From: a virus
IMG/VR virus record: IMGVR_UViG_3300047363_000004
Location: 1-30,068 of that record
Direction: 5' to 3' (one strand)
DNA length: 30,068 nt
The notes under the pieces are model-generated. The model had not been told where the DNA came from and did not search any database. It was given only the letters and a program-made list of their open reading frames with translations. The number at the start of each line of letters is the position of its first letter. Positions within the stretch are counted from its first letter, which is position 1. Shown piece by piece: positions 1-17,405 of this stretch. A program made the translations under genes and the position numbers.

Positions 1-127
1 ATTCGAAATGTATCCACTTGGAGAAGTTGTCGAACACTTTCACCCGTGGTTCATCATGGAAGTACAGGCGCATCATTTCGTTTAGCCAGAGGCTCGCATC
101 GGGATCATGGTTACCCCTTACGTTGAT
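1..127. repeat. Left copy of 127-bp direct terminal repeat
   Basis: Positions 1-127 are identical to 29942-30068. The repeat lies inside the metallophosphoesterase gene, and joining the two ends restores that gene's reading frame. This is most simply an assembly overlap of a circular or circularly permuted genome, because 127 is a common maximum assembler k-mer. A biological terminal repeat is less likely. Confidence 0.95.
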
Positions 128-850
128 CAGCCACACTTCCTTGTGCGTCTCCAGCATCCGAGTGATTAGGACTTTGAATAGGTTCCCGACAATACGGATG
201 ACCCGGCCCAGCCTTCCATCGACATCGACCGGGGTTCCTTTGGCTGTCTTGTTGTCGCCTGAGTTAGCGTGAAGGAAGTCACCCAAGTTAATAAGTGCGC
301 CTACTTCCGATTCACCTGCCGCAGATACCAGCTTATCGACTGCCTTGATCAGTACGTCTTGAGCAATGTTTGTATCCCAGTCATCGCCACCCGTCTCAGG
401 GGACCAGCAGAGGGCGTTAAGGTGATGATCTCCGATTAGGTAAGCTGATAGCCTATCTTCATTCTTTGCCGCTTCTGGGGCTTCTATGGGCTTGTAGAGG
501 CCATCTATCTCTTCGAGGAATCCAGCCTTGAATGACTCAAGCGCCGCCTCAAGCATAGCTTCTCGATCAGCCATCGACTTAACCCACTGACCGACGGGTT
601 TTCCGTCCTCGTTGTAGTAGGTTGACACCCCTTTAACCTTGAAGGTATCGGGGACAGTGCGAGTCATGTCATGCTCGGGTGAATAGCCTTGGGCGGCGGC
701 TTTATTTTTTACGCCTTTAATGCAATCTCTGACACTAAGACGGCCAATGCCTACTTGCTGGCCGATCCTCGTATAACCCAAGCCCTGTTCGTGAAGCTCC
801 ACGATTTGTCGTTGTCTGTCGGTAGTACAATACTCAAGTAATGACATCAT
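1..850 (-). CDS. HTH-calcineurin-like metallophosphoesterase, N-terminal 283 residues (gene crosses the contig ends)
   Basis: This is the first part of a 388-residue protein that continues at 29625-29941 once the circle is closed (1167 nt, in frame). Residues about 11-46 look like a helix-turn-helix. The metallophosphoesterase domain shows its metal ligands in order: GDHH (D141, H143), GDFLH (D191, H194) and GNHD (246-249). The rest (HHGD and GHIHH) lies in the second part. The family hydrolyses phosphodiesters or phosphomonoesters with two metal ions, and phage members are often guessed to be SbcD-like nucleases. Two adjacent ATGs (850 and 847) follow a G-rich ribosome-binding stretch, so the start is uncertain by one codon. 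It sits at the end of the early recombination genes, 17 nt after the NinB-like gene, which suggests a role in phage DNA processing. The substrate is unknown. Confidence 0.85.
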   Translation of the reverse strand, partial: MMSLLEYCTTDRQRQIVELHEQGLGYTRIGQQVGIGRLSVRDCIKGVKNKAAAQGYSPEHDMTRTVPDTFKVKGVSTYYNEDGKPVGQWVKSMADREAMLEAALESFKAGFLEEIDGLYKPIEAPEAAKNEDRLSAYLIGDHHLNALCWSPETGGDDWDTNIAQDVLIKAVDKLVSAAGESEVGALINLGDFLHANSGDNKTAKGTPVDVDGRLGRVIRIVGNLFKVLITRMLETHKEVWLINVRGNHDPDASLWLNEMMRLYFHDEPRVKVFDNFSKWIHFE

Positions 851-867
851 CTCCCCCCGGATAGATG

Positions 868-1263
868 TTAAGTGCGCCTCCCGAATGGCACGTTGATCGA
901 GTATTTTTCGACAAGTAGCCTACTCAAAACCTCGTAAATTTCGTTGACCTCCACGGGATTAATCTTTCTGGTGGAATCAACGCCTGTTACAGCCTTTTGA
1001 ATTGGTCGCCACATGTAATCCTTAATCAGGTACATAGTGGGATCAATGGGGACGCCTTCCTTGATGACGGTCTTCATGTCCATACCGTGCGCCGCCATAA
1101 CACTGGCGACCTCTCTACAGTAAGCATGAATTGCGTCGTTCTGCTTTCCGGTCCGGGTGAGAGGAATAATCTCGTAGATATTCCCCTTGTCTTGGTTAGC
1201 CCGAATGTATTCACAAAACTGATCGGCTTGGAATTTGTTGTTGACGAACCATCGCTCGCTCAT
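868..1263 (-). CDS. NinB-like recombination protein (tentative)
   Basis: This 131-residue protein resembles the layout of the lambda Orf/NinB family. An N-terminal strand region is followed by a GKQNDAIHAYCREVA helix, and the C-terminal part has DSTRKINPVEVNEIYEVLSR. In NinB proteins the matching regions are a Gln-Asn pair followed by a helix, and a Ser-Thr segment before a C-terminal helix. Lambda Orf binds ssDNA and helps load recombination proteins. The gene overlaps the upstream gene by 4 nt and precedes the metallophosphoesterase, so it is in the early recombination operon with the ERF-like protein. The assignment rests on motif pattern only and could be wrong. The gene itself is secure from its length, start and operon spacing. 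Confidence 0.6.
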   Translation of the reverse strand: MSERWFVNNKFQADQFCEYIRANQDKGNIYEIIPLTRTGKQNDAIHAYCREVASVMAAHGMDMKTVIKEGVPIDPTMYLIKDYMWRPIQKAVTGVDSTRKINPVEVNEIYEVLSRLLVEKYSINVPFGRRT

Positions 1264-1649
1264 GCAGTTACCCGCTCGCCTTCGAAGGTGACGTACTGCC
1301 CATACTTCTGGAGGCAGTATGCTCGAAACTTTTCGGATTTGAGAAAATCATGGGTGCAATCGTCTAGGAAGCTCCAACTCTTCAAGCCGATTTTACCAGA
1401 AGTTGACTGTAATTTCGCGGCAAATGGGGACACGCCTTTTTCCATGTCGGCGGCACGTTTGAGCCACGAGGTAATGAACTGCTTTATTCCTCGCGGGGTT
1501 TTGCGTTTCTTGGGGTTGGCATCGCACCACATAGCCATCGCATTCAGCTCGGCAAAGACATCGACAGTTGAGTAGGCCTGTTGCAGTTGGATCAGGTATT
1601 CATCGTCGGGTTCGTAGTAAGTACCATCGTTTAAAATAATCATCCACAC
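1260..1649 (-). CDS. Phage replication-protein-like domain protein
   Basis: This 129-residue protein centres on a segment (about residues 29-68) with an ELNAM...WCDANPKKRKTPRGIKQFITSWLKRA pattern. That pattern is familiar from the C-terminal part of phage replication initiator or primosome-type proteins. Here it stands alone without an obvious DNA-binding N-terminal domain, so the protein may be a reduced replisome-recruiting factor. It is the only replication-like gene I can point to in a genome with no polymerase, primase or helicase. The ATG follows AAAAGGGAAGTG, a fair ribosome-binding site. A 20-nt imperfect palindrome (1661-1680) lies just upstream of that site. Confidence is good for the gene and moderate for the role. 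Confidence 0.65.
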   Translation of the reverse strand: MWMIILNDGTYYEPDDEYLIQLQQAYSTVDVFAELNAMAMWCDANPKKRKTPRGIKQFITSWLKRAADMEKGVSPFAAKLQSTSGKIGLKSWSFLDDCTHDFLKSEKFRAYCLQKYGQYVTFEGERVTA

Positions 1650-1972
1650 TTCCCTTTTAATGCCGGAGCAAGCTCCAGCAAATTAGTTAATTAGTAATGG
1701 CGAGCTTTGATTACTGTATCGAATCTTGACATCTATCCGCTTGACCAGCTCTCGGCCTGCGGGGCGCATCATGGAGAGGGTCAACTCCGTCTCCGACGTT
1801 CTTAAGTTCGTCGGCCTAACGCCCAGTAATCTCTGACAAAAAAGTAGATGAGGGAGGATACGGAATGGTTTTGTAGTGTATAATCCATACATCTTCTAGC
1901 TTTGACCCCTTGAAGATATCATTAGTCCCTCCCTTGGACAAGTGACATGGCCCCAGTGATGGGGCCTTTTTT
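1650..1972. other. Non-coding stretch between early genes
   Basis: This is the longest gene-free stretch in the genome, about 320 bases. No open frame here has a convincing start and ribosome-binding site. It holds an imperfect 20-nt palindrome (1661-1680, GGAG-CAAG-CTCC core), a TATAAT on the plus strand (1879-1884), and a strong rightward terminator (1949-1974). It could carry a promoter or operator for the replication-like gene, a small RNA on the plus strand, or an origin. None of these is proven. Confidence 0.6.
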
Positions 1973-1974
1973 TT
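1891..1974 (+). ncRNA. Possible ~84-nt plus-strand small RNA
   Basis: A perfect TATAAT (1879-1884) on the plus strand is followed after about 7 nt by a stretch that ends in a canonical intrinsic terminator (1949-1974). The RNA would be about 84 nt. Two further short stems are possible: ATCTTC with GAAGAT, and GTCC with GGAC. The -35 region is poor (GGATAC at 17-bp spacing), so the promoter is weak evidence. No protein frame explains the rightward terminator. This is an inference, and the alternative is that the terminator ends a longer antisense transcript. Confidence 0.3.
1949..1974 (+). terminator. Intrinsic terminator facing rightward
   Basis: The plus strand reads GGCCCC, a 6-nt loop AGTGAT, GGGGCC, then eight T. 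This is a textbook rho-independent terminator for rightward transcription. On the minus strand the A run precedes the hairpin and no U run follows, so it should not efficiently stop the leftward operon that passes through it. It sits directly after the stop codon of the secreted-protein gene. Confidence 0.8.
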
Positions 1975-2251
1975 ACCACTGATTAACCACCTTAAAGATC
2001 GACTTGCGGTAGCGATACTTTCCTTGCTGGTCCCACTTGGCAAAGATGGTTGTGTCGTCATCCTTCCAACAACCTTCCTCGGTATAGTGGCCTTCAGTAA
2101 AGAAGTAGGCCCGAAGCATCGTTGGATCAGCTTCACAACGCTCATCGGTTAGGACAATCTGACCGCCTTCCCCGTTCTTGGTGTATGCCTTAGTTCCGGC
2201 GAATGCTGGCATAGCTACCAGCGTGATAAGTAAAACAATGAACTTCTTCAT
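1973..2251 (-). CDS. Small secreted protein of unknown function
   Basis: This 92-residue protein starts with a clear type I signal peptide: MKK, a hydrophobic core FIVLLITLVAM, then PAFA before the predicted cleavage at about residue 19. The mature part (about 73 residues) has two cysteines (in DERCEAD and EEGCWKD) that could form a disulfide in the periplasm. No lipobox is present. It starts 4 nt inside the end of the HTH gene, within the early operon. An exported early phage protein could act in superinfection exclusion or host-envelope change, but no homologue was recognised and that role is speculation. Confidence 0.75.
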   Translation of the reverse strand: MKKFIVLLITLVAMPAFAGTKAYTKNGEGGQIVLTDERCEADPTMLRAYFFTEGHYTEEGCWKDDDTTIFAKWDQQGKYRYRKSIFKVVNQW

Positions 2252-2466
2252 GCTCTCTCCCCTTTAATAAACCACTCTGCAATCCGCACCGATTCACCGT
2301 AGCGATTCAGCACTGGCTTCATGGTTGTCAGTATTGTGTGACCTTCATGCCTTAGCTCTGAGATACGAGCCGGGGCTTCGATCACCCCTAACTCATCCCA
2401 TGCGTTCAGTCTGTTCAACACCTTGCCTTGCTTGAGGTACTGAAGTACCCGATCTTTCTGACTCAT
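2248..2466 (-). CDS. Small helix-turn-helix protein
   Basis: This 72-residue protein matches the pattern of the short phage and prophage helix-turn-helix family typified by Pfam HTH_39. MSQKDRVLQYLKQGK opens into a first helix. NRLNAWDELGVIEAPARISELRHEGH forms the HTH with recognition helix, and a small wing with NRYGESVRIAEW follows. It overlaps its neighbours on both sides by 4 nt (ATGA junctions), so the three genes are translationally coupled. It is a likely DNA-binding regulator of early transcription. Its target is unknown, but the palindromes at 4101-4135 and 28658-28670 are candidates. Confidence 0.75.
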   Translation of the reverse strand: MSQKDRVLQYLKQGKVLNRLNAWDELGVIEAPARISELRHEGHTILTTMKPVLNRYGESVRIAEWFIKGERA

Positions 2467-2684
2467 GCTTTCTCCCTATATGGCAAGTCAAGAAACGATT
2501 CGAAGTCCATATCGAACCGCTCTGCAAAATCCACTGTGCGGCTCAAGGTTGCGTCCTTGCTCTTGCGCCATCTGTGGATTGTCATTTCAGTTACATCAAA
2601 GTCCCGCGCCAGTTGTTTATTACTGACACGAAACTCTTTCTGCGCTGTTCTCAGCGACAGACCAATATCAAAATGGAATGTCAT
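2463..2684 (-). CDS. XRE-like helix-turn-helix regulator
   Basis: With the ATG at 2684 the product is 73 residues. Its central part, VSNKQLARDFDVTEMTIHRWRKSKDATLSRTVDFAERF, reads as a Cro/C1-type HTH: helix 2, a turn at FDVTE, recognition helix MTIHRWRK, then a helix ending at a phenylalanine. An upstream in-frame start at 2750 would lie deep inside the preceding gene. I prefer 2684, which overlaps that gene by 17 nt. It is the best candidate in the genome for a Cro or repressor-type switch protein. No integrase was found, so a full lysogeny circuit is not shown. Confidence 0.65.
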   Translation of the reverse strand: MTFHFDIGLSLRTAQKEFRVSNKQLARDFDVTEMTIHRWRKSKDATLSRTVDFAERFDMDFESFLDLPYREKA

Positions 2685-2931
2685 TAGAGAAATCTTCGCT
2701 TGGCTGAACGGCTTTTCGGGCTTGTTGCATACCCTTGTTGTGCGCCTCATCCTTAGCCGTGGTACTGAGAGACATGAAGACGTTGCCGTTCTTGTCCTTC
2801 TTCAGCCACGCAGACAGCCAAAACTCTGACCCATTGGCGTCGGTGTAGCTCCCTTTGTAGTCCGGGTGCGTTTCCTTTTCTTTGCGGTCGTTCTTAAACA
2901 AGACGCCGCGATTGGTGTTGTCGTACTCCAT
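2668..2931 (-). CDS. Small ssDNA-binding-like protein
   Basis: This 87-residue acidic-tailed protein opens MEYDNTNRGVLFKNDRKEK. It continues with HPDYKGSYTDANGSEFWLSAWLKKDKNGNVFMSLS, a beta-rich segment of a kind common in short phage and prophage proteins. The C-terminus SNDIPF resembles the acidic tip (DIPF) of bacterial single-stranded DNA-binding proteins, which recruits partner proteins. It directly follows the ERF-like annealing gene (1 nt between stop and start). A small SSB-like partner of the annealing protein is therefore reasonable. It is shorter than a classical SSB and the OB fold is inferred, not shown. Confidence 0.7.
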   Translation of the reverse strand: MEYDNTNRGVLFKNDRKEKETHPDYKGSYTDANGSEFWLSAWLKKDKNGNVFMSLSTTAKDEAHNKGMQQARKAVQPSEDFSNDIPF

Positions 2932-3522
2932 TTATGCTTCTCCCAAGATTAGCTTACGTGCTTCGTTGAACTCGTTTGATTTGAGATCACTACGCTCAGC
3001 AGTTGTGAAGATGCCGCCCTTACTAGGCGCTACCCACAAGGCTTTCTTGTCGTCGTTAGTAATCTCGCCCCATGCTTCTGCTACGGCCTCCCATGCCTTC
3101 AATGCGAGGTGTTCTTTGATGAAGTACACAGACGCATAGTTACGCTGTAGTGCTTCGTTGTGGGCCATGATTGGCCCGGTGTCTTGTTGCTGTTGGATAG
3201 CGTGGGCAACCTCATCGGCAGACGCGTACTCAGTACCGCCAAAGCCTAGAGCTGATAGACAGCGACCAATAGCTGAGGTTTCTGCGTTCTCTAGCGCACT
3301 GGTTGCATTGATCTTGCTGGCGGCACGTACCTCTTCTGAGTAGCCAGTAGCCAACAGGCGACCATCATTGTCTAAGATGCTGGCCTTCATAATCACCAGC
3401 ACATCATTGGCCTCAACTAGATCGGTCGAGATTGTGTAATCGGGATGGGCCGCTCTAAACTCTGCGACCCGAAGTGCCACGGTCTTATATTCTTTACCGT
3501 GGATTTTTACGACACCATTCAT
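2932..3522 (-). CDS. ERF/Rad52-like ssDNA annealing protein
   Basis: This 196-residue protein begins MNGVVKIHGKEYKTVALRVAEF. Its central core is a signature seen in many phage ERF-type recombinases: ATGYSEEVRAAS, then SALENAETSAIGRCLSALGFGG, then EYASADEVAHAI (about residues 58-108). The family binds ssDNA and anneals complementary strands in phage recombination and repair. The variable C-terminal half (from about 115) is of the kind that differs between members. It overlaps the upstream small gene by 4 nt and is followed by the SSB-like gene, as expected for an annealing module. The exact subfamily (Erf, Rad52 or another group) cannot be settled by eye. Confidence 0.7.
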   Translation of the reverse strand: MNGVVKIHGKEYKTVALRVAEFRAAHPDYTISTDLVEANDVLVIMKASILDNDGRLLATGYSEEVRAASKINATSALENAETSAIGRCLSALGFGGTEYASADEVAHAIQQQQDTGPIMAHNEALQRNYASVYFIKEHLALKAWEAVAEAWGEITNDDKKALWVAPSKGGIFTTAERSDLKSNEFNEARKLILGEA

Positions 3523-3731
3523 GCTACTTCTCCTGCGACACTTGCCGCGTCCATCATTTGAATTAACTCATAACCACAGGCAAAACCTGCCTCGTAGTCC
3601 TGATCGGGTATGTGGCGCTTACCCCAATTGTGAGCCATGCCATCCTCAAAGCCGCACCTGTACGCCCTGATCTTGGGGTCCATGTGCTCGCGTAAGCCCT
3701 TGCTCAACACTTCTTCAGTATCAAAAGTCAC
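3519..3731 (-). CDS. Small protein of unknown function
   Basis: From a GTG at 3731 the product is 70 residues. A GGGGG stretch lies about 9 nt upstream, and the gene overlaps the end of the upstream gene by 11 nt. A longer in-frame start at 3818 would overlap that gene by about 100 nt and add a low-quality Arg/Ser-rich stretch, so I reject it. The body has a paired pattern: IRAYRCGFEDGM, then YEAGFACGYELI. Repeats of Gly-Phe-x-x-Gly like this are common in small phage proteins of unknown role. It sits between an unknown acidic protein and the ERF-like gene in the early operon. Confidence 0.6.
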   Translation of the reverse strand: MTFDTEEVLSKGLREHMDPKIRAYRCGFEDGMAHNWGKRHIPDQDYEAGFACGYELIQMMDAASVAGEVA

Positions 3732-4080
3732 TGTCGCGTACCCCCAGATCAAGTGCCGTCTCAGGCTTGATATCCATCTCATAAGCGTACTTTGACTGCT
3801 CATCCGAAATGGCCTCAACGGTCATTGGCTTGGCGTAGTTCCAAAGCATGGTGCGGAGTTTATTGACGACATCAGCCGGGTCCATCTGGTCGTTGAAAAT
3901 CATGTCAACGAATTCCAGCTCGGAGCCAGTCTGGTGTGCGGCGGTAGGTGCAAGCTCGGATGAGTCGCGTTCGACTTGACGCATTAAGTCACGGCGAATG
4001 TCCATGTCCTCAATGTAGTCAACATTATCTTCCCAGTTAGGGAAGTTTGTAGCGATTTCATAGAAATCAAATTCTGACAT
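3721..4080 (-). CDS. Acidic early protein of unknown function
   Basis: This is the first gene of the early leftward operon, 119 residues from the ATG at 4080. That start is chosen because GGGAGAAGGA ends 3 nt upstream. An ATG nine residues earlier (4107) lacks such a site. The protein is rich in Asp and Glu, without membrane segments, cysteine motifs or a recognisable domain. First genes of phage early operons often encode host-takeover or inhibitor proteins, which is only a positional hint. The promoter region with two palindromes lies immediately upstream. Confidence 0.65.
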   Translation of the reverse strand: MSEFDFYEIATNFPNWEDNVDYIEDMDIRRDLMRQVERDSSELAPTAAHQTGSELEFVDMIFNDQMDPADVVNKLRTMLWNYAKPMTVEAISDEQSKYAYEMDIKPETALDLGVRDSDF

Positions 4081-4100
4081 TTGTCCTTCTCCCTTGGTTA

Positions 4101-4114
4101 GTTCCACATGGAAC
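4101..4114. promoter_or_regulatory. Palindrome in early leader
   Basis: GTTCCA-CA-TGGAAC is a perfect 6-bp inverted repeat with a 2-bp centre. It lies immediately downstream of the putative early transcription start and abuts a second palindrome. It is a candidate operator for one of the phage HTH proteins. Confidence 0.45.
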
Positions 4115-4135
4115 AGATAACACTTTACGTTATCT
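4115..4135. promoter_or_regulatory. 21-bp palindromic operator candidate
   Basis: AGATAAC and GTTATCT form perfect 7-bp arms around a 7-bp spacer ACTTTAC. On the minus strand the candidate -10 hexamer occupies the spacer, so a bound dimer would block RNA polymerase. The size and symmetry suit a phage repressor or Cro-like dimer. Confidence 0.55.
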
Positions 4136-4150
4136 TTAAGGGGAGTGCAA
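4122..4150 (-). promoter_or_regulatory. Candidate early promoter
   Basis: On the minus strand TTGCAC (4150-4145) and TAAAGT (4127-4122) are separated by 17 bp. That would start transcription near 4115, just upstream of the first early gene. Both hexamers are weak matches to the sigma-70 consensus, so the promoter may need activation. The support is mainly position and the overlapping palindrome. Confidence 0.3.
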
Positions 4151-4163
4151 CATTATTTGTTAT

Positions 4164-4520
4164 TTAGGAATAGGTCCACATAACGGGCGTGGTTTTGCGG
4201 CCGTCGATATGTATGAAGCCCTTGGCTACCCCTATGCCTCCGAAGCCAAGCTTGAGTGCCTCATGTACGATGTTCATGCGCTCAAAGCCGTTAGACACTG
4301 CGATGTCAGCCGCAAGGCCTTGGCAATGATAGCCTGTACCGGGTTCAGCTTTACGCGCCTCAGCAGGATGGGTTGCATCCCTGTAGCCTGAAGTGATTAC
4401 AAAGGGAAAGCCAACACGTTCGCGTAACTCATCGAGCCGGTGGATGAAGGCATGGTCCATGCAATTAAGGTTCGTGTGAGTACAGTTGAACTCTTCGAGT
4501 CTGAAGAACTTGAAGCTCAT
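4164..4520 (-). CDS. Peptidase M15 family endolysin
   Basis: This 118-residue protein has the zinc-peptidase pattern of the M15 (D-Ala-D-Ala carboxypeptidase-like) family. SGYRD is at 44-48, the first metal ligands H65 and D72 are in YHCQGLAAD, and the last is H104 in FIHID. W115 lies near the C-terminus. Family members cleave peptidoglycan peptide cross-links, and small phage versions act as endolysins. It has no signal peptide, so it needs a holin, which is present at 4647-5045. It is the last late gene and starts in a 4-nt overlap with the tiny basic gene upstream. No leftward terminator follows it. Confidence 0.88.
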
Positions 4521-4645
4521 TTCTTTTTCTTCTTGGCCTTTGACAGTGCGATAGCGATAGCTTGCTTTTCTGGATAGCCTTCACCACGTAACAGGCTTAT
4601 GTTCTTGCCGATAGTCTTGCGGCTTCTTCCTTTCTTCAATGGCAT
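4517..4645 (-). CDS. Tiny basic protein (42 residues)
   Basis: This is a 42-residue Lys/Arg-rich protein. It starts [15 protein letters not shown] and ends with a run of lysines after [16 protein letters not shown]. Similar very short proteins with an 'EGYPxKQAxAIALSKA' segment are common in marine and environmental phages, without known function. Its ATG lies 1 nt after the holin stop codon, and its TGA overlaps the endolysin ATG (ATGA). It is therefore tightly coupled between the two lysis genes. Its charge suggests nucleic acid or membrane-surface contact, but that is a guess. Confidence 0.75.
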
Positions 4646-4646
4646 A

Positions 4647-5045
4647 TCAGCTCCGCGCTACGTTCTTGGTCTTCTCTACAGTACGCATACCGCCCAATCC
4701 CAGCATCCCTAGTAGTACGGGCATCATCTCGCTAACGTCCAATGACGGGATCAGCAGGGAGTTCTCAGACCATGCAGTTAGGTAGATGTTTACAATTGGA
4801 ATAATAAGAAAATTAACGCTGAAACCAAGAACACATATCCAACCACACGCCGGTCTCCAGCCAGAGACGAAAACCGACTTGTGTTTGGCCTCATTCTGAT
4901 TGACATTAATTTGAGCTTTTGCAATTTCATGGGCTTGCCTCTCCGCTAGTGTTGCGATCTCGTGGGCTAACCGACTGCGTTCATCCGCATCGGGGATAAC
5001 CTTGTCTAACAGCTTGAAGATAGGGCCAACCAGTAACTTCACCAT
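4647..5045 (-). CDS. Holin (3TM, gene-transfer-agent type)
   Basis: This 132-residue protein fits the holin family found in gene transfer agents and many phages. It has an N-terminal amphipathic charged region (about 20-55). The hallmark [21 protein letters not shown] starts the first membrane segment, a second hydrophobic stretch ([12 protein letters not shown]) follows, and a third is near [19 protein letters not shown]. It should form membrane lesions that release the M15 endolysin to the wall. The gene shares one base with the upstream coiled-coil gene and lies two genes ahead of the endolysin, a normal lysis cassette. Confidence 0.85.
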
Positions 5046-5377
5046 TAGATACCGCCCTTAATCCACACGCCTATAACAGCCATAACGCCAGCCATAATGA
5101 TGCGCTCAATCCACTGGTTCTTGGCTATGCTGATCTCGATAGCTTGAAGCCGCTTCTCGTGGTTCTTCACTTCATCTTTCAATACAGCTTGAATCTCATC
5201 AATGCGTTTGTGGGCGCGAGCTGCTGTCTCGGTCAAGTGGACTTGCCTTTGCTCCATGCTTGATAAGTCTTGAAGGGTCTGGGCAATACTTGTGAGAGCG
5301 GATTTCATCTCGCTAACGTCTTGCGCCATCGCTTCCTGCTGGGCTTCGAGCTTCGCTACTGACCGCTCTATGCTCAT
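5045..5377 (-). CDS. Coiled-coil protein with C-terminal membrane anchor (XhlA-like)
   Basis: This 110-residue protein is almost wholly helical. A long heptad-rich region runs from about residue 5 to 85. A single hydrophobic segment, IERIIMAGVMAVIGVWI, ends near the C-terminus with a short KGGI tail. This matches the shape of the haemolysin XhlA-type accessory holin family. Such proteins act with a holin in lysis control, and may be antiholin-like. It immediately precedes the 3TM holin (1-nt overlap). No separate spanin pair was recognised, so a role in outer-membrane disruption cannot be excluded. Confidence 0.7.
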   Translation of the reverse strand: MSIERSVAKLEAQQEAMAQDVSEMKSALTSIAQTLQDLSSMEQRQVHLTETAARAHKRIDEIQAVLKDEVKNHEKRLQAIEISIAKNQWIERIIMAGVMAVIGVWIKGGI

Positions 5378-5379
5378 GG

Positions 5380-5535
5380 TTACTTCTTCTTAGCCGTCTT
5401 GGCCGCATCTTTAAATGCCTGAGCTGTAGGCGCACCAGCAGTGCCGGGCTTACGCATACGCTCACCAGAGCCAGACGCTATTCGCTCGCGCTTCTTCATG
5501 ATGTTGTAGTACAAACCTTTCTTTGGCTTCTTCAT
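5380..5535 (-). CDS. Tiny basic protein (51 residues)
   Basis: This 51-residue protein begins MKKPKKGLYYNIMKKRERI and continues SGSGERMRKPGTAGAPTAQAF before a Lys-rich end. Short proteins with 'GLY.NI..KR.RI..GSGE.MRKPG..GAPTA.AF' are widespread in environmental phages and have no assigned function. Its ATG overlaps the stop of the upstream gene (ATGA at 5532-5535), so it is translationally coupled to it. The role is unknown. A virion-associated or DNA-condensing role is possible from the charge but unproven. Confidence 0.75.
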   Translation of the reverse strand: MKKPKKGLYYNIMKKRERIASGSGERMRKPGTAGAPTAQAFKDAAKTAKKK

Positions 5536-5831
5536 GCCTTCCTCGCTTTGTTACGCTTAGAGATTGCCGCCGCCTTCTTTCTAGCATCCGCCTTTGAGCT
5601 GGCACCCCATGCGTTCAATGATAACAGCAAACGTGTGGGTTCGCCGTCCTTACGTTCTGGCCCAGGCATGTTACCCATGCGAGCAAGGAAGCTGGCCCGT
5701 CGCGGGTTGTCACCGCTCTTCACAGGACGCTTGAGGTTCATCCCCTGCTTCTTGGCTGAACGTCTACCTGCTTCGTTCAAGCCGCCCTTTGGGTTCTTAC
5801 CGGCCTTGCGTTGCCATGCGGGTGTGCTCAT
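5532..5831 (-). CDS. Basic protein of unknown function (DUF6321-like)
   Basis: This 99-residue strongly basic protein carries a very regular conserved pattern: PAWQRKAGKNPKGGLNEAGR, then LKRPVKSGDNPRRASFLARMGNMPGP, then GEPTRLLLSLNAWGASSKADARKKAAAISKRN. I recognise this as a common uncharacterised phage family (DUF6321-like). Its function is not known. It forms a coupled pair with the downstream 51-residue basic protein. A cysteine-protease-like gene lies upstream and the lysis genes lie downstream. High conservation in many phages and abundant Arg/Lys suggest an interaction with DNA or capsid. Confidence 0.8.
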   Translation of the reverse strand: MSTPAWQRKAGKNPKGGLNEAGRRSAKKQGMNLKRPVKSGDNPRRASFLARMGNMPGPERKDGEPTRLLLSLNAWGASSKADARKKAAAISKRNKARKA

Positions 5832-5832
5832 A

Positions 5833-6231
5833 TCAGCCTCTAATCTTTCCTAATGCCATCTTAATCGCCACGGTAGTAGGCAGAATCGTATAGTTCCAAG
5901 GCCAGAAGTCGTGGCCTAGCTCTTCCATGTCTTCACGCTCGACCCATGCTTTTGTCCAATTATCAATGTACATGTCGCCGTAGCGCAGTACAGCATGGCC
6001 TCCGCCGTTCTTAGTCTGACAGCCACATATCTCAGCTTGGAAGGTAAACAGCATCCACCAAAACTTGAGCCATGATCCTTGGCATACAACGTAATAAAGG
6101 ACGGAAAGCGAGTAGTCCTCGCAGTCGCCCCGGTACGCACCTTGCTCATTCGGCTTAATAACGAACCACACATCCCGACCTTTTGGGTCGTACTTGTAGT
6201 CGTATAAGCTGTTGAACTCAGTTAGGTTCAT
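5833..6231 (-). CDS. Transglutaminase-like cysteine protease family protein
   Basis: With the ATG at 6231, which is 7 nt after the upstream stop, the product is 132 residues. It shows a papain/transglutaminase-type triad in the correct order: C37 in RGDCEDYS, H79 in GGGHAVL and D90 in YIDNW. That spacing matches the bacterial transglutaminase-like cysteine proteinase family (BTLCP, peptidase C93). A hydrophobic aromatic stretch (LKFWWMLFTF) lies between Cys and His. It has no signal peptide. The position between structural and lysis genes suggests either a virion-associated enzyme that cuts peptide bonds in the cell wall or a maturation protease. The substrate is unknown. Confidence 0.75.
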   Translation of the reverse strand: MNLTEFNSLYDYKYDPKGRDVWFVIKPNEQGAYRGDCEDYSLSVLYYVVCQGSWLKFWWMLFTFQAEICGCQTKNGGGHAVLRYGDMYIDNWTKAWVEREDMEELGHDFWPWNYTILPTTVAIKMALGKIRG

Positions 6232-6238
6232 GCCAATC

Positions 6239-6544
6239 TTACGACGACAGATAGTCGATCCACTTACAAGCAAGTCGGACCTTGCAAGTACCCGAACCGA
6301 AGTCGCCTGTCTTCACGCCTACGCGATAGTTCTGACGCTCTGCCTCAAAGCCAAAGGTCTCGATGTCGGATGAGAATGTATCAACGTCGGTCCAGTTAGT
6401 GCCATCAACACCAGACTGCTTCTGTACTGTGACGACAGTGCCGCCAGCAATACCAGAGATAGACAAGTTAAAATAGCCCTGAGTCTTGATCTCATCGCTG
6501 AATGAGTTCTGAGCCGTAATGCTCTTAGTTACTACACCTGACAT
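6239..6544 (-). CDS. Small beta-rich virion-associated protein (putative)
   Basis: This 101-residue protein begins MSGVVTKSITAQNSFSDEI. It is built of short alternating strands with GYFNLSISGIAGGTVVTVQ, DGTNWTDVDTF and YRVGVKTGDFGSGTCKVRL. Small proteins with this 'ITAQN.FSD...F..SISG.W.GTV' layout often sit beside tail-fibre genes in environmental podoviruses, and probably form a beta-sandwich. A receptor-binding or decoration role is likely from fold and place, but I know of no tested function. It shares one base with the upstream gene. Confidence 0.65.
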   Translation of the reverse strand: MSGVVTKSITAQNSFSDEIKTQGYFNLSISGIAGGTVVTVQKQSGVDGTNWTDVDTFSSDIETFGFEAERQNYRVGVKTGDFGSGTCKVRLACKWIDYLSS

Positions 6545-6795
6545 TATTCAACCTCCTGTGCCGCGTATGCCGCTTTAGCTTCATCGCTAAATACAGCCGA
6601 TGCGATAGCCACAACCTCAGCATCTTCTCCAGACAAGTCTGCATCTGGTGTGAGTACATGACGATGGAATGTACGAGATACTTCTTCGCCATCGCGCATA
6701 ATCATTGTCGCAGTGCGAACCTGTACTACTGGATAACCAGCGGCAAGGTGCAACACCTCAATCTTGTCGTTCATTGTTTGTTCAGTAAGTGCCAT
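6544..6795 (-). CDS. Small protein of unknown function beside the tail spikes
   Basis: The start at 6795 is set by a near-perfect AGGAGG four bases upstream, giving 83 residues. An in-frame ATG 13 codons earlier lacks this support. The sequence MALTEQTMNDKIEVLHLAAGYPVVQVRTATMIMRDGEEVSRTFHRHVLTPD is followed by an acidic SGEDAEVVAIASAVF segment. Similar short proteins occur downstream of spike or fibre genes in other phages and have no assigned role. A chaperone or fibre-assembly part is one option from position only. Confidence 0.7.
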   Translation of the reverse strand: MALTEQTMNDKIEVLHLAAGYPVVQVRTATMIMRDGEEVSRTFHRHVLTPDADLSGEDAEVVAIASAVFSDEAKAAYAAQEVE

Positions 6796-6846
6796 GTGGC
6801 CTCCTATGTTTATCGCCCTATCGGGCCTGTCCACCCGCTAAGGGTA

Positions 6847-8106
6847 TTAAGTTTGAGTTCCTACTACAGTGCCGTCTGTGTCTGAAGTTGGTGCGCCATT
6901 TTTAATTCTAAGCCTGCCCGAAGCATCCACCCAAAAATGATAGCTCCCAAGCTGTAAAGGGCTAAAGTCCCACCCAGCTTCACCAATGTCCACCTGTTGA
7001 GATACATGCATTTTGCCATTAGATGTCACATGAAAGCGATCAAGGCCATCTGATTTTCTTTCGCCCTTTATAATGTAACTGGAATTTGTATCTCTACCGC
7101 TTTCAACTAAAATTCCAAAGCTATTGCCTGAGAGGGAATATTCATCGTCAATTCTTAGGACTGGATTATTCCCGCCAGCACCAAGTCGATTTAAAATTAA
7201 TGTTTGGCTGTCATTAGTTGGAGTGATAAGTTTATTTAGATCACTCAATAGCAAGGAGTTAGACAAGCCATTATCAGTTACCGTAGTGTACAAGGATCTG
7301 CTGTCAACCGTGTTGCGCTGAGTGTAAGTCCCAAAAACAATGTCGTCATTTACCCATGTGCCCTCTGTTCTGCAATTCCAAATCACATTGGAATGGCTTG
7401 AATATTCAGGAGCTAAATCTGAAGCATCTAAATAGAAAGCCTGATCGCCTTCACCTTCGCATGACATAGCAATGAATCTATTGTGGTTCATGCCGACATC
7501 TAAATAAACATTCGTATTCGTATCTGAGGTGGTAAACATTCTTCCACCAAGGAATACATTCTCGTTAAAGAATCCTGTTCCCGATTTAGAGCCCGTTATG
7601 TTGTAAAAGCCGCCAGTACCGCCTATGTTTATAAACGTATTGTAAGAAACTCGCATTTCATTTTGCGGCTTAAACCACCAGTTATATTTTGAATATCTAC
7701 TTTGGACGCTCTCCATAACAACGCCAGTTGCGTCATAAACTGCTAGTCCTATATTTTCTGTCGTGCCATCATAAGATGTTCTATCAATCGTTAGATTTTT
7801 GATAGAGCCAGAAAATCTAGAGCTAGATCCGACTTTGACAGCCTCCAAAACCGAGCTATCTGTTAAAGAAATAACAGTGGTTCCAACGTCAGAGCCAGCG
7901 CCCTCAATAATCTTTTTACCGTCAATCAATAAAGAAGAAGTTATCTTGTAGGTTCCAGCAGGGATATAGATTTTTAAAGCAGAGCTATTAAAAGCGCTGT
8001 GTAATGCCGAAGTGCTGTCTGCAACTCCGGTTGGATCTGCGCCAAAATCTAAGGCATTAGCAACAGACCCTTCAATCATACGGTTGTGTGTTTTTGTTAA
8101 TGCCAT
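6847..8106 (-). CDS. Pectate-lyase-like tail spike
   Basis: This 419-residue protein opens with a typical right-handed beta-helix entry (ALDFGADPTGVADSTSALHSAF, then KIYIPAGTYKITSSLLIDGKKIIEGAGS). Parallel beta-helix rungs follow to about residue 270. The C-terminal part ends with HFWVDASGRLRIKNGAPTSDTDG, a tail often seen in trimeric spikes. Such proteins bind or cleave surface polysaccharide. No N-terminal virion adaptor is present, so it should attach through another spike, probably the 733-residue fibre encoded upstream. Its base composition is clearly more AT-rich than the head genes, a sign of exchange. Catalytic residues cannot be picked out by eye. Confidence 0.8.
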   Translation of the reverse strand: MALTKTHNRMIEGSVANALDFGADPTGVADSTSALHSAFNSSALKIYIPAGTYKITSSLLIDGKKIIEGAGSDVGTTVISLTDSSVLEAVKVGSSSRFSGSIKNLTIDRTSYDGTTENIGLAVYDATGVVMESVQSRYSKYNWWFKPQNEMRVSYNTFINIGGTGGFYNITGSKSGTGFFNENVFLGGRMFTTSDTNTNVYLDVGMNHNRFIAMSCEGEGDQAFYLDASDLAPEYSSHSNVIWNCRTEGTWVNDDIVFGTYTQRNTVDSRSLYTTVTDNGLSNSLLLSDLNKLITPTNDSQTLILNRLGAGGNNPVLRIDDEYSLSGNSFGILVESGRDTNSSYIIKGERKSDGLDRFHVTSNGKMHVSQQVDIGEAGWDFSPLQLGSYHFWVDASGRLRIKNGAPTSDTDGTVVGTQT

Positions 8107-8113
8107 AATAACC

Positions 8114-9010
8114 TCATGTCATGTAAAAACCAGAAAATGAAATCTGATTATCTGAAGACGTGTTTCCCATATTGCTTGCTTGGAAAAAAGTAGATGCGCC
8201 GTTTGAAGATGATTTTTCTGTCAAATATATACGGGATGTTCCGGCTTGGAATCTTCCAGCGGTTGGGTAGTTTGTTCCAAATGCAAGGGCTTCACCTATC
8301 GTAACCGCTGATCTGGTACTTAATCCTGTGCCCGATCCTGTGGCAAACGGAAGCCCCTCAATAGTTAAACCGCCATCAACAGCGACTACTGCCGAGTTAG
8401 TAGTAATGTACCCAGAAACATGAACAACATTACCAATTTTTGTGTATGTTCCGCCTGTAAATGCATTATATGTAATGCTAGAAAATGAGCCTCCGGTGAT
8501 GCCAAAGGTCGGAGTCCAAGTACCCTCTTCATAGTCATCGAATAGTTCAGAGGTGCCAGTGCCAGAGGTAGCAGAGAAGTCGATGCCTGAGCCAGACGCA
8601 AGAATGATGCTGCCATCATGTCCATTAGTCATATCTAAATGACCAGCTTCAGTAAAACGAGCCGCTTCACTGTCATTAGTGAAGAATCGCATATAACCGC
8701 CAGAACCGCTGTGATTATATTGCAACCTTCCTTTAGCTGAACCGGTTGGTTTTCCAAAGAAAATTGCGCCCGCCTTATTTTCTGGAGTTGCAATAGTAAT
8801 TCCAGCATTATCGGCATTCTCAACCATCAATTCATTGGCACTGCTCGAAGGACCAACGCCGCTATCCGCTGTCTGAATAACAGTATTAGTCCCTAATGTG
8901 GTCGTGGCTGAAGTTGCATCAACAACACCACTTATAGTTAAGTCTGTAACCTCAACATCATTAAATGTTGGGTTGCGACCAAAGATGCCGCCTATATGTT
9001 TAATCGTCAC
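8114..9010 (-). CDS. Tail fibre/collar-like protein
   Basis: This 298-residue, Gly/Ser/Thr-rich protein starts MTIKHIGGIFGRNPTFNDVEVTDLTISG, a short entry domain. It has no charged coiled coil. A middle segment with GSGIDFSATSGTG and DDYEEGTWTPTF is a phrase found in many tail-fibre C-terminal domains of marine phages. The end is beta-rich. It lies between two beta-helix spikes in a single transcription block, so it is probably a third component of the adsorption apparatus. AT-rich codon use like its neighbours points to a shared transferred block. The receptor is unknown. Confidence 0.7.
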   Translation of the reverse strand: MTIKHIGGIFGRNPTFNDVEVTDLTISGVVDATSATTTLGTNTVIQTADSGVGPSSSANELMVENADNAGITIATPENKAGAIFFGKPTGSAKGRLQYNHSGSGGYMRFFTNDSEAARFTEAGHLDMTNGHDGSIILASGSGIDFSATSGTGTSELFDDYEEGTWTPTFGITGGSFSSITYNAFTGGTYTKIGNVVHVSGYITTNSAVVAVDGGLTIEGLPFATGSGTGLSTRSAVTIGEALAFGTNYPTAGRFQAGTSRIYLTEKSSSNGASTFFQASNMGNTSSDNQISFSGFYMT

Positions 9011-9021
9011 GCTATATCTCC

Positions 9022-11223
9022 TTACGGCTCAGTTGCCAAAATTTGTGCTGCACCAGTACCAAAACGAACCATCAATTGCGTTTTCCCGGCACCATTGTCT
9101 TTAAGGTAAAGTCGGGCTTGATTTGCCGCTGGATTTGCTGGGTCAGCCGAAACTTCTCCAAGAATACGAACAACAGCCGCACCGTTTTCTTCTTCAAATT
9201 GCATTCGGTTTGTGCCAGCAAATGCAAAAACATGATCTGCCGTTGAAGATGGGACGCCATAAATCCAGCTATCAGTTGACGCGCTTCTGATCTGATAATT
9301 GGCAGATGTTGTCCCGGCATTGTTAACCGATCTCAAACCAGAGGAATTTTTTAAAACAACATCACTATCAGTGGCACCTGTTTGCACATTATGCCCAACC
9401 AACATAAAGTTTTTTTCATCATTTCTAATTTGAATTAGCTTGGCAGTTGAGTTTGTTTCGCCAGCTGTATTGGCAGAAAATGTTGCTCCAATAGCTGTAA
9501 TTGCATCGCCAGAGGCGGCATTGATGCCAAAGCCAGTGGTTGTTTGAATTTTGCCGCCAATGATTGTGATACCTTGTCCAGCAGAATAAATCCCATCGCC
9601 AGCGGTCGGGCCAATGCCACAACCAATAATCGTTACGCCAAAATTTGATGATGTTATATGAATGCCATCATCACCAGCGCCTTCAGCGCCACATCCAGTG
9701 AATGAAATGGACTGATTATCTCTTGTTGCTCCATCCAAATAATACGTGTGACGTGTGGAAGAATCTGATCCACAATTTACAAGCGCACTATAAGACATCC
9801 CAGATATTGAATAATTGTCTTGGCCACATTCTTTTACAAAACAATTACTAAGAGTTACGGATGTCCCACCGCCAACAGCGCTTGGCTCTAATCGGATGCC
9901 ATCTCTTGTGCAATCTTCAATAACAACTTGCTCAATAGTCGATGTTTGAAGCCTAATTGCCCTAATACCATCTTGGAATCCTTTAATGCTAACTTGCTTA
10001 ATAAGAACTCCGGCAACAGTACCATCATCACTTACTATGCCATCACCGTTTCTTTCGAGATAAATACCAGCGCCACTTGTCCGTGATCCAGACGTATCTC
10101 GAATGGATATATTCTGAACAACTGTCTGGCTTGCACTCGCAATGTTGAATACATTAAAACCATCGGTTGCAACAATAAATAAAGAAGCGTGTTCAGACGT
10201 TGCAATTACACCGTCTTTATTCCAAGGGCCATAACCTTCGCCCTCAAAGATTATTGCTGGTGCGCCATACCAAGACGCAAGATCAATGGTTGAAGAAACA
10301 AGATATTTACCTGTAGGTACAAAAACCTTTCCGCCACTAGCGGCAACAACAGCATCAACAGCCGCCTGAATCGCCGCAGTATCATCAGTCACGCCATCGC
10401 CAACAGCACCAAAGTCCTTGACGCTAACGCTCTCTCGTAGCTTGGTCTGTACTGTGGTCTGTACTGCGCCAGTTCCGGCGGGTGTGTAAGTAACATTAGC
10501 GGCGTCAGTAGCAACAAGATCACTTACTTTGTAACTAACAACCTCAATACTTGCGTTAGTTGGTGGCGCTTCTGTAAATGTCAGAGCTGTGCCGCTTACG
10601 CTATAAGTGCCCTCTTCCTGATATACGCCGTCAATGTAGATGACGACAGCCGCCGCAGAGCCGGGGTCCGCCGCCAGAGTGAATACAGTTGTTGAGCCAT
10701 TACCTGTGAACTGTTGACGTACAATGATCGACGGGCTGAGTGCGCTTGATAGTGGCGACGTGCTTACCGCGCCAGTTGAATCAAAGGTCAAGAAGCTATC
10801 AGTACGATCAGCCGCCTCGGGTAGCTCCATCGAGATAGAGTCAGAGTCGGTAATAGGCTTGCGGATAGACTGAGAGAATGCACGGTTAGTCTGTTCGCCT
10901 GCTAACCAGAGATTATCGAAGTCGCTGTTAACCTCAGAGGCTAGGAAGTCACCAGAGTTTGTATAGTTCTGGGTTCGCGAGTAAGGCATATCCCGGTACA
11001 GGGTCAGAATGTCGCCTGTAGTCGCGCCAACGGTAAGGGTTACATTGCCACCACTATCATTGCCCACGTTCGACACAGTGTAGTCTGTGCCCTCTGAGAG
11101 GGTAGTACCGTTCTTTAGGACGACAACATCGTCCTTGTCTACGATCTCGAACGTATACGCAAAGACCGTCTGACCAGAAGTCGCGGTATATTGGTTACGG
11201 CTTGTATTGTCTGCTACTGTCAT
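9022..11223 (-). CDS. Tail fibre/spike with T7-gp17-like N-terminus and beta-helix body
   Basis: This is a 733-residue protein. Residues 1 to about 130 match the T7 tail-fibre N-terminal domain that docks on the podovirus tail (TATSGQTVFAYTFEI, GDILTLYRDMPYSRTQNY, FDNLWLAGEQTNRAFSQSIR). A second beta domain follows (FTGNGSTTVFTLAAD). A pectate-lyase-type beta-helix starts at VKDFGAVGDGVTDDTAAIQAAV (about 272) and runs for most of the rest. It should be the main adaptor and receptor-binding spike. The gene begins in a 4-nt overlap with the large ejection protein. GC content drops from the beta-helix start onward (below about 10400), which suggests the receptor-binding part was exchanged onto a resident adaptor. 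Confidence 0.85.
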   Translation of the reverse strand: MTVADNTSRNQYTATSGQTVFAYTFEIVDKDDVVVLKNGTTLSEGTDYTVSNVGNDSGGNVTLTVGATTGDILTLYRDMPYSRTQNYTNSGDFLASEVNSDFDNLWLAGEQTNRAFSQSIRKPITDSDSISMELPEAADRTDSFLTFDSTGAVSTSPLSSALSPSIIVRQQFTGNGSTTVFTLAADPGSAAAVVIYIDGVYQEEGTYSVSGTALTFTEAPPTNASIEVVSYKVSDLVATDAANVTYTPAGTGAVQTTVQTKLRESVSVKDFGAVGDGVTDDTAAIQAAVDAVVAASGGKVFVPTGKYLVSSTIDLASWYGAPAIIFEGEGYGPWNKDGVIATSEHASLFIVATDGFNVFNIASASQTVVQNISIRDTSGSRTSGAGIYLERNGDGIVSDDGTVAGVLIKQVSIKGFQDGIRAIRLQTSTIEQVVIEDCTRDGIRLEPSAVGGGTSVTLSNCFVKECGQDNYSISGMSYSALVNCGSDSSTRHTYYLDGATRDNQSISFTGCGAEGAGDDGIHITSSNFGVTIIGCGIGPTAGDGIYSAGQGITIIGGKIQTTTGFGINAASGDAITAIGATFSANTAGETNSTAKLIQIRNDEKNFMLVGHNVQTGATDSDVVLKNSSGLRSVNNAGTTSANYQIRSASTDSWIYGVPSSTADHVFAFAGTNRMQFEEENGAAVVRILGEVSADPANPAANQARLYLKDNGAGKTQLMVRFGTGAAQILATEP

Positions 11224-14200
11224 AAGTCTCCAACCTCTTCCTCTATTCTATCAAAGGCTTGACGAATAAACGTAAGATTTTGATAGGGGATTAGTCTCCG
11301 CAATGCGCGGGTGTCTGATTCGTTCCATCCGTCCTCTGCCAGACCAGCGTTAGCCACCCTTAGAGACGTATCCAAAAAGCTCCCGAATGTGGGGCCAAGT
11401 AAGTTTTCCGACATGCTACGTGAGGCAAAGCGAGCCGCCGGGATGTCTACACCCAACAATGGACGCATTCCAAAGTTATTGCTCGATAGCTTCTCAAGCG
11501 TATTGTTGATCTCCATGATGCCGCCAAGCGCACCCGATCTATCAATGCCCTCAATCACTAACTCAACAGGGTCTTCCGCAATATCGCGCTTCGCATCCCA
11601 TTGCTTGAACGAGTAGGACATCATGCCCAAGCTAGTCAGCATCAATACGCCAGCCAGAGCATTGTGATCTTGATTCTGTAGCGCCGCTATAGTCATACGC
11701 TGAGTCGATGCAAACATGAACGAGCGGAACTGAAAGATCGTCTTGCCCAGCTCAGTAGACATAAACAAGGGCTTTTCTTGGCCGGGGACTACGATCACGC
11801 GGTCAGACTCTTTACGAATCGCCGCGCCCCAAAGTCTTTCAAGTTCGGGTGAATCCCAGTTGCGAGCATTCGACAGCCATACGCCATCAACCTTAGTCGC
11901 GTGTTTCTTTAGCTCTGCCGCCATTGCCTGAGCGTTACCGGCATCAATACCCAAGCGAGCCAGACGCTTATCGACCTGACCTTTCAGCAGTCCATCAATA
12001 ACACTGTTCTGCATGGTTACCGCGTGAAGCTGTTTTACTCCAGTCGTCCAGTAATCCATGAGGTTTACACGACCAAAGTTGTCAGTGGCGTACTGGATGC
12101 CACGCTCAAACGCAGTGTTAGGCTGTGTGTAATCAGCTACATCCGAAATAATCTGCGAGCGACCGCCCATCAACGCATCAACGCCAACGCCATACCGCTT
12201 GGCCTCTGCCGATGACACTTTGAACGAATTGATATTCCTAGCGAGCGGCAACAAGCCCTTTGAGAAAGTCTTGCCAATGCCTTCAGCCATGAAGATACGA
12301 GCCACATCGGGAACAGATGACGCAACAACGCCACCCATAAACCGCATATAGTTGAGGTTTCGAGATACACGACCAGCGCGAACCCATACGTTATCAGGAT
12401 CGGGTTGGGCATAGACGCCACGCATACGATCACGCATCGCCACGATATCGCGTATATCTGCGTCGGCTTGCTTCTTCAGCTTGATTCGCTCTTTCTCAGT
12501 CTTGGCTACACGTTGCGCTTCTGTGTACCAATCCAATATCTCTTTCTTCTGGATGGTCAGATCGAGATCGCCAAACTCTCGCACGATCTCCATATCCGTT
12601 GCCGTGTTGCGTAGGTAGTAACGGCCCAAGTCCTCGATGTCGTTATCCAAGAACTCCTCAACCATGTTGTCTGGGATCTGGAATGTTCGAGACTTGAGCG
12701 GCCCACGCAGTCCAACAGTGCCATTCAGATTGTTGTTCGCAGAGCCTTCGCCAATCTTCCAGTCGTAGGGAAGCCGACCATCTGGAGTGCCTTGAATACG
12801 CTGTGCGATCTGCTCCGCAATGCGCTGGTAATCCTCATCGGTTAAGTCTTTGGCCTCTTTACGCTCTGCCCGGTCGATGATTTCTTGGAGTCGTGTACGT
12901 TCTGCGCCAGTAGCTTCAGCAATATCAGCCTCGGCCTTTGTCGCTTGATCGCGCAAACGAACATCCTCATCGCGCAACCACTTCGCAGTAGTGTCGATAA
13001 ACTTGGGAAGATTCGCTGATACCTTGCCTTTGTTCCAGCGTCGGTTCAGATAGCCGACAGCAGTGCCAACGCTTACGTCTTCGGGTAGCAAGCCAAGCTC
13101 AACCAAGTCATCCTTGATTGGGTTATATAGTTCTGTGCGCCAGCTATTCGCAGACTGTAGAGCCTCGGGTATTGCAGACTCTTCATTCCGCATGGCCCTT
13201 GCCACTTCCTCGTTGAACTGCCGACGACGCAGACGACCGCCGTTAGATCGGTATTGCTTATAAATATCTAAGTGGTTTTGGAGTGCCGTCGCATACTTGC
13301 CGTCGTGTATCTTGGCGCGTGACTCAACAGACGTAACGATATCGCCATCCATCTTAACTGGATTCTCAGCAAGTAGATTGGAAACTATCCGAGTGAATGG
13401 GTTGTCACTGGTGATCGTGCGAGATAGTGGGTCAAAGCCAAGGGCCTTAACCAATCCCTTCGCAAACTTGCCGCTTACTTCAACATCTGCAACACGCTGT
13501 GCCGCACCTGCGCTCTTCTCTTCTGGAGTCGCCCGATACTCAGGGGACAACACGCTGTCATCGCCAGCTTTTACTTTTGGCTCAACATTCATTGAGTCCT
13601 CAAGAGTCCTGATAGCAGACGCATCAAGGGAGTTAGCTAGAGCCTTACCGCCTGCGCCCAGTACACCGCCTAGAAGAGCCGCCGCGCCTAAGTTGATCGC
13701 AGACTCGCCATAGGTACGTGTTAGCTGTGATTGGTGCAGAGCGGCCTCTGTGACTGCTGTGGAGGCTGTTGCAACACTGCCCGTGACGACTGCCGCATCA
13801 AGAATGGAGTTACCCGCCTTGTATGTCTTGGCAACCGCACCGCCAATCGGTATCAGGTTAATAGGATCGGCAATACCAACAACACCAAGGCCAACAAGAA
13901 ACGACATAGCGCCGCCCTTCTGAATAGTCTCTCGATCTGTTGTCTCTTTGGCATACTGTTTGCGTACTGCCTCAATCTCATCGACCGTATCTGCTAGTGC
14001 CGCATGAGATACAAACTTTTTGTCTAGCTTCTCGCCTTCCGATAAGTAGTCGTAAGGGTTGAATGACTGATCATCCACGCCATCGGGTAGGCCAGACTCT
14101 TGATTAACGAATGAGCCGATTGTGTTTTCTTGACGCCATAACGCGCTTGCGATCTCGATTACCGACGGATCTTCATCCTCGGGCGCTTCCGCAAGGTTCG

Positions 14201-16591: not shown

Positions 16592-16593
16592 TC

Positions 16594-17037: not shown

Positions 17038-17405
17038 TGTTCAGTCTCCAATATCTGCTCGGCAATCTTCTCAGGATTGGTTTCATCGGTAGGATGATAA
17101 GTCGTCCATACCGTATCTGTTACTGCGTAGATAACTCGCTTCATGCCGGGCCTAGTTTGTCCTGTATACGGTGCAACCATGTGTTCCTTGCCTTCATGCG
17201 TCACTGCGTAGCACTCGCCTTGTGAGACTGTGAATATGTGATTGGTCTTATGTAGTGCGCCGACCAAGCAAACACCCGCAGGGATGAACAACTCACGCGC
17301 ATATAGACCGTCGGCAAAGTGATCAGTCACAACCGTCTCGGCTTGAGGCATTTGAAGCATCAAGTCCTGCGCTTTGAAGATTCCATCCTGTAGGGCAAGG
17401 TTCAT
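17034..17405 (-). CDS. Cupin-like phage protein
   Basis: This 123-residue protein has the beta-barrel pattern of a small phage cupin. DGLYARELFIPAGVCLVGALHKTNHIFTVSQGECYAVTHEG is followed by GMKRVIYAVTDTVWTTYHPTDETNPEKI. The histidines in HKTNH and YHPTDE are placed where cupins bind metal, but a complete ligand set is not certain. Such genes occur between tail tubular B and the internal proteins in many podoviruses of this kind. Their role is not established, and a structural or assembly part in the tail or core is likely. It shares one base with the upstream tail gene. Confidence 0.75.
   Translation of the reverse strand: MNLALQDGIFKAQDLMLQMPQAETVVTDHFADGLYARELFIPAGVCLVGALHKTNHIFTVSQGECYAVTHEGKEHMVAPYTGQTRPGMKRVIYAVTDTVWTTYHPTDETNPEKIAEQILETEQ

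Follow-up and report, generated by a model that had tools for sequence, protein, structure and literature searches.

A conserved small-RNA gene in a family of small phages, with an exposed seed that probably pairs with Shine-Dalgarno sites of phage mRNAs

The window analyzed here, a virus contig of 30,068 bases, encodes a head-tail adaptor, tail proteins, and internal virion proteins that appear podovirus-like. Its two ends carry a 127-base direct terminal repeat, so the joint between the genome ends assumed in an earlier note on this DNA is real. Each of the 62 phage records that match the internal virion protein shares less than 60% identity with it (27 to 31% in those listed), and annotated phage records yielded no DNA match. 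The lone clear rightward gene, which the note had placed near 28.7 kb, is present and matches Sigma70 region 4 (Table 1). A NinB-like gene at 868 to 1263 (minus strand) scored 22.0 bits against Pfam NinB, slightly under the cutoff of 23.8, and the gene at 1260 to 1643, which adjoins a conserved leader (module A), matched no family. A weak hint of the host comes from L251 (DAOUSV010000002.1), a 30.9-kb contig of a Piscirickettsiaceae MAG with a terminase 74% identical to that of the window. No convincing copy of the small-RNA locus described below (B) was found in six MAG contigs with terminase relatives, L251 included (best E value, 0.146).

Table 1. Features of the B locus and its predicted targets in the window
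Feature	Position	Strand	Description
Promoter region of B	1837..1884	+	In the family, direct repeats with a 10-bp period, in register with the -10 element; weak in the window
-10 element TGTATAAT of B	1877..1884	+	TATAAT at 1879-1884; no -35 match
Small RNA B	1885..1974	+	Predicted start ~1890 (gene ~1890-1974); three hairpins, seed, terminator
Hairpin 1 of B	1891..1917	+	ATCTTC/GAAGAT; 100% of cells paired, 4/6 pairs changed on both sides
Hairpin 2 of B	1919..1945	+	TCAT/GTGA, inner GTCC/GGAC; displays the seed
Seed of B	1929..1937	+	CUCCCUU at 1929-1935; extended to CUCCCUUGG for the F2 match
Intrinsic terminator	1949..1974	+	GGCCCCA-GTGA-TGGGGCC-T8; 7 pairs, 6 of them G-C; 5/7 stem pairs double-changed in the family
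Module A, structured leftward leader	1640..1844	-	Runs up to the ribosome-binding site of gene 1260-1643; separate from B
F1, probable second target	2248..2466	-	Winged helix-turn-helix, HTH_39; SD AGGGAG at 2472-2477
F2, main predicted target	3721..4080	-	119 aa, predicted all-helical
Target site CCAAGGGAG	4089..4097	-	SD of F2 (ATG 4080-4078); complements CUCCCUUGG, 9 nt
Lone clear rightward gene	28717-28920	+	67-aa protein, Sigma70 region 4 match

The note had pointed to a strong rightward terminator in a region of leftward genes, and rightly so: a seven-pair stem is followed by eight T's, and only the plus strand has the T-run. This terminator heads a list of 13 terminator-like sites in positions 1 to 15000, and none of the 12 sites in 15001 to 30068 has an uninterrupted T-run after a comparable stem. 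Site numbers are at chance level in both halves (13 versus 12.1 and 12 versus 11.5 in shuffles), so the case rests on the quality and conservation of this one terminator. The TATAAT read by the note on the plus strand is also where it was said to be, and a TATANT box lies upstream of 51 of 52 covariance-model matches in the family, the exception being a cut contig. The word TGTATAMT occurs once in the window versus 1.5 times by chance. A consensus promoter scan did not find a -35/-10 pair at B, which has no -35 box.

Upstream of the -10 element, the family carries direct repeats with a period of exactly 10 bp (lag-10 autocorrelation z of 10.3, next highest 2.1, in 16 sequence clusters with mononucleotide shuffles as the control); the signal is weak in the window itself. 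Such a period suggests that an activator may be bound in front of B. The repeats, one per helical turn, are seen in L039, L013, L022, L212, and others and could form an activator array. One idea is that the 67-aa Sigma70 region 4 protein is a candidate binder of them.

Relatives were collected with the protein encoded at 1260 to 1649 (30 viral contigs) and with a word of the conserved noncoding block (54 stretches); the terminator unit is absent from both probes. B is found in at least 102 loci, representing at least 68 distinct contexts on viral contigs, and its carriers form a family of small, mainly metagenome-derived phages. Loci from several scans overlap, and contexts are those that remained distinct after removal of identical ones. 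The B pattern is present in 82 of 87 sources (the window and L002 to L087); the five sources lacking it are three cut contigs (L025, L035, and L087) and two with a UUCCC seed (L009 and L044). One extra scan used a short pattern that gave mostly chance matches, and among the matches listed, only L122, L131, and L161 were clear new members.

The conserved noncoding block consists of two parts, module A (~1640 to 1844) and module B (~1877 to 1974), with variable DNA between them. B occurs without module A in L010 to L012, L122, L131, and L161. A strict module-A pattern was passed by 51 of the 68 B contexts, and the failures L197, L204, L212, L215, and L246 still carry module A with small changes. 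DNA to the left of B has been exchanged in some relatives, and the gene to its right also varies. In L010 (minus strand, left of B), L122 (1 to 325), L131 (~3700 to 4075), and L161, module A is replaced by an unrelated noncoding stretch that is conserved among them and that yielded no Rfam match at gathering score.

Module A ends at the leftward ribosome-binding site AAAAGGGAAG, with the ATG at 1643; it always lies immediately before a ribosome-binding site, and the downstream gene varies. Its 47 distinct sequences show covariation, and the pattern of G-U pairs fits the minus strand (182 cells in 13 pairs, some of them constant columns, versus 4 cells in 3 pairs for the plus structure). The consensus fold is likewise stronger on the minus strand (-37.7 versus -29.3 kcal/mol). 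Because module A is structured on the minus strand and B on the plus strand, the two leave the region in opposite directions. No Rfam match to module A was found, and its word was present in none of the contigs of bacterial genomes. We speculate that module A could be a riboswitch-like or translation-control element.

An RNA of about 84 nt with extra stems, starting behind the -10 box, had been proposed from the window alone, and comparison strongly supports it: 68 distinct contexts preserve the -10 box, the three hairpins, and the terminator together, and compensatory changes are seen. Folding of the 84-nt stretch yields -27.9 kcal/mol versus -17.85 ± 3.19 for shuffled sequences (z of -3.15; 1 of 200 was as good). 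A covariance model (R2) with a hand-written structure was trained on 34 sequences from a single clade. It detects 52 of 55 sources; of the three missed, L025 is a contig truncated ahead of B, L035 is one truncated within B, and the third is L070. The model also recovers 11 of 12 sequences of a left-out divergent clade, with E values of 5e-5 to 0.013 in a search space of 0.51 Mb. An earlier model, R1, had an automatic consensus structure that paired implausible columns and was dropped.

Across 47 distinct rows, 95.1% of cells in the structure are paired, and both sides have changed in 12 of the 21 pairs. Double-changed cells number 98; shuffles gave 27.4 ± 5.7, and slid structures never gave more than 10. 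These counts come from a model-fitted alignment (A4) that is biased toward its own structure. A plain MAFFT alignment (A2), in which no structure was fitted and terminator stems of unequal length are misaligned, gave fewer double-changed pairs than shuffles (3 versus 4.1) and more double-changed cells (26 versus 12.1). Counts of G-U versus A-C, at 14 each, showed no strand preference for B.

We found no conserved rightward ORF in B. No through-open frame exists in 19 of 61 distinct RNAs, a complete ATG-initiated small ORF exists in only 8 of the 61, and ORFs that span B differ in length, with many contexts having none. A small protein gene was ruled out, as the rightward reading frame is not conserved. 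The locus combines what is expected of a small-RNA gene, namely, a promoter (by its -10 box only), a covarying structure, a terminator, and no ORF, and comparison among relatives strongly supports the reading of B as a conserved small-RNA gene.

The seed of B is unpaired in all 61 distinct RNAs, with a computed unpaired probability of at least 0.84. In one clade it occupies a hairpin loop; in the other, it is part of the linker preceding the terminator. Among the 102 loci, 89 have the seed CUCCCUU, 5 have CUCCCGU, 5 have UUCCCUU, and 3 have CUCCCUC. We searched for targets in the 46 of 69 distinct genomes whose right flank extends for 2.7 kb or more. An exact complement of the own 7-nt seed was present in 44 of them, within the Shine-Dalgarno (SD) region of a leftward gene at +1.0 to +2.7 kb, and in the remaining two (L122 and L044) one G-U replaces one pair. 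A second gene of 196 to 250 aa bears the word as well in about a third of the 44 genomes, and in a few the site found precedes a small unrelated ORF. Of 35 permutations of AAGGGAG, the word itself was found in 45 genomes, an overlapping neighbor in 40, and the next in 14, against a mean of 3.7 for all 35. A base-swapped word occurred in 4 of the 46 genomes, all in the CUCCCGU clade and before the 196- to 250-aa second gene.

In the window, the complement precedes F2, for which we found no PHROG, no Pfam match above the cutoff, and no fold match at an E value of ≤0.001. Homologs of F2 in different clades fall to 17 to 25% identity with the SD word retained, and in several genomes another gene stands behind the F2 leader, again with the word retained. 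Cofolding of B with the F2 leader of the window gave a net energy of -15.2 kcal/mol, with pairing that spans the SD and the AUG. When RNAs were swapped among seed groups, a group's own RNA cofolded best in only two of six groups, so energy alone is no proof of specificity. Beyond 7 nt (positions 8 and 9), complementarity did not favor the own RNA either. In favor of pairing, L215 and L231 have a 9-nt seed-target match with a different flank. A duplex ranking within the window, in which the starts of F2 and of gene 1260-1643 were wrong, put other genes first. Two small hairpins, GATAAC/GTTATC and GTTCC/GGAAC, precede the F2 SD in the window (4078 to 4140, minus strand); other clades have GTGC/GCAC in place of the second.

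Seed and target have changed together in one clade. Four contigs with the seed CUCCCGU (L036, L039, L041, and L075) retain the target flanks, and all 10 of their leftward ACGGGAG copies outside B stand at SD spacing before an ATG: four before F2, four before F1, and two before further genes. Elsewhere among the B loci (904,635 redundant bases), this is so for 1 of 19 copies. The fifth CUCCCGU locus, L208, has no leftward ACGGGAG outside B, in a contig with only 771 nt of right flank. As a paired example, the sequence before the ATG is CGGCATTAAAGGGAGATAGGC in L079 and CGGCATTAACGGGAGATAGGC in L075. Since the change is confined to one clade, it represents one event, visible in several genes. 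There are exceptions: a 197- to 239-aa gene of the CUCCCGU clade keeps the SD AAGGGAG, and in L197, which has the seed CUCCCUC, the SD is likewise unchanged. The two features expected of an SD-blocking antisense RNA, an exposed seed and an SD complement kept through change, were thus both observed, with a single covariation event and exceptions among genes.

We consider it quite probable that B is a trans-acting antisense small RNA of about 85 nt that blocks translation of phage genes. Sequence and conservation suggest that its transcription would run rightward from a -10 promoter of its own and that the RNA would be released at the intrinsic terminator of B. Its middle part is computed to present the unpaired seed CUCCCUU, which would pair with complementary SD sites of leftward mRNAs, above all that of F2 and probably that of F1. 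The duplex is predicted to cover the SD and, in the window, the AUG too, so that ribosome binding would be blocked. The seed-SD pairing is supported by comparison among genomes, transcription and repression being predicted steps, and repression is likelier than activation. That the seed is conserved and single-stranded suggests that B acts in trans on other genes.

This last point bears on the earlier proposal that the terminator ends an antisense RNA of about 3.2 kb, which would start at the lone rightward gene at 28.7 kb and cover the metallophosphoesterase, NinB-like, and replication-like genes. The scan did show no comparable rightward terminator from 28701 to the end or before 1949, and the ends of the window repeat. 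Such a long transcript is nonetheless unneeded and very improbable, because a -10 box stands directly before a conserved, covarying RNA and because B is retained where the DNA on its left has been replaced; a read-through transcript from 28.7 kb may also end at 1974. Least probable of all, to the point of being hardly tenable, is that the hairpin at 1949 to 1974 merely serves as the 3' stabilizer or end of a leftward mRNA of the gene at 1973 to 2251. That ORF (minus strand) does end at the T-run. The minus-strand hairpin, however, lacks a T-run, and where the right-hand gene has changed, the other two hairpins and the -10 box still accompany it.

Two further explanations accept the conserved word and read it differently. 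B may be real, with CUCCC as a general anti-SD motif, host mRNAs as its main targets, and the F2 and F1 matches as a product of shared SD usage. CUCCC and UCCC motifs block SDs generally in bacterial RNAs, according to the portions cited of PMC4132741 and PMC12559287, AAGGGAG serves fairly often as an SD in these phages (53 of 1,302 distinct regions), and the flank and energy swaps were unspecific. We think this unlikely, as the word occupies a single conserved leader in 44 of 46 genomes, also where a different gene follows, and word and seed change together. Lower still, though a little above the long transcript, we place the notion that B and the F2 leader share the word as a site at which a protein binds DNA or RNA, with no pairing involved. 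The word does have the same DNA orientation in both places, and an altered protein preference would make both copies covary. Against this, the word coincides exactly with a correctly spaced SD in several genes, and within B it is single-stranded in every case, though its structural context varies by clade.

How does the proposed antisense RNA compare with known ones? The sar RNA acts on an mRNA that overlaps it. In the sections cited of PMC12197685, c4 (P1/P7), sar (P22), and OOP (lambda) are described as short structured phage RNAs. Translation initiation of a phage mRNA is blocked by c4 and sar, with c4 using loops that complement the surroundings of the ribosome-binding site; OOP is antisense to cII and acts on an mRNA that it overlaps. 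These belong to temperate phages; B differs in lying about 2 kb from F2, in overlapping no target, and in having a seed that coevolves with the leaders of exchangeable genes. VpdS (VP882) and PreS (lambda) are phage-encoded small RNAs that act in trans on mRNAs (PMC12197685, same sections). Both are experimentally known, Hfq dependent, and from temperate phages, and B was compared with them through Rfam only.

At gathering score, Rfam 15 identified no family in the window or in ten further loci, and sub-threshold matches of B to many small RNAs consist mainly of the terminator and the C-rich motif. The alphaR8/suhB RNAs (MmgR and SisA-D; RF00519) are like B in carrying a C-rich anti-SD motif, CCUCCCU, before a strong terminator (PMC12559287; Rfam alignment). 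For these alphaproteobacterial RNAs, the cited part of PMC12559287 describes an anti-SD 10-mer and proposes base-pairing control of many mRNAs. Their hairpins differ from those of B, which is phage-borne and has its targets in the same phage genome. B scored 17.5 bits (window) and 24.4 bits (L131), below the RF00519 gathering score of 41, and membership in suhB was rejected by this cutoff. In the Gram-positive RNAs LhrC, RsaE, SprD, and RNAIII, UCCC in loops or single strands pairs with GGGAG-type SDs and blocks translation, as the cited part of PMC4132741 reports; their action would be similar to that of B, to which they are not known to be related in sequence, and they control bacterial genes. 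We found no paper on a B-type RNA by title or abstract in the open-license PMC literature on phage and structured small RNAs.

The seed/leader pairs CUCCCUU/AAGGGAG and CUCCCGU/ACGGGAG, with exchangeable cassettes as the genes behind the leaders, allow a further speculation, that B supplies the specificity of an RNA-based code for phage-against-phage immunity or timing. We regard this as doubtful. If it were true, leaders that match the seed of a resident phage would be silenced in a co-infecting relative, and those of another seed type would be spared, much as c4 acts between P1 and P7.

The phage small RNAs described in the literature cited here come mostly from temperate phages of few hosts. 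Sequence alone sufficed to find B, in phages that are uncultured, and comparison allowed a reading of its structure, seed, and targets whose predictions are testable to single base pairs. B also marks a likely control region, in which a structured leftward leader, a phased-repeat promoter, and a small RNA are fixed while the surrounding protein genes are exchanged. Because the exposed loop of B matches the ribosome-binding sites of particular phage genes, it is very probably a built-in switch for them.
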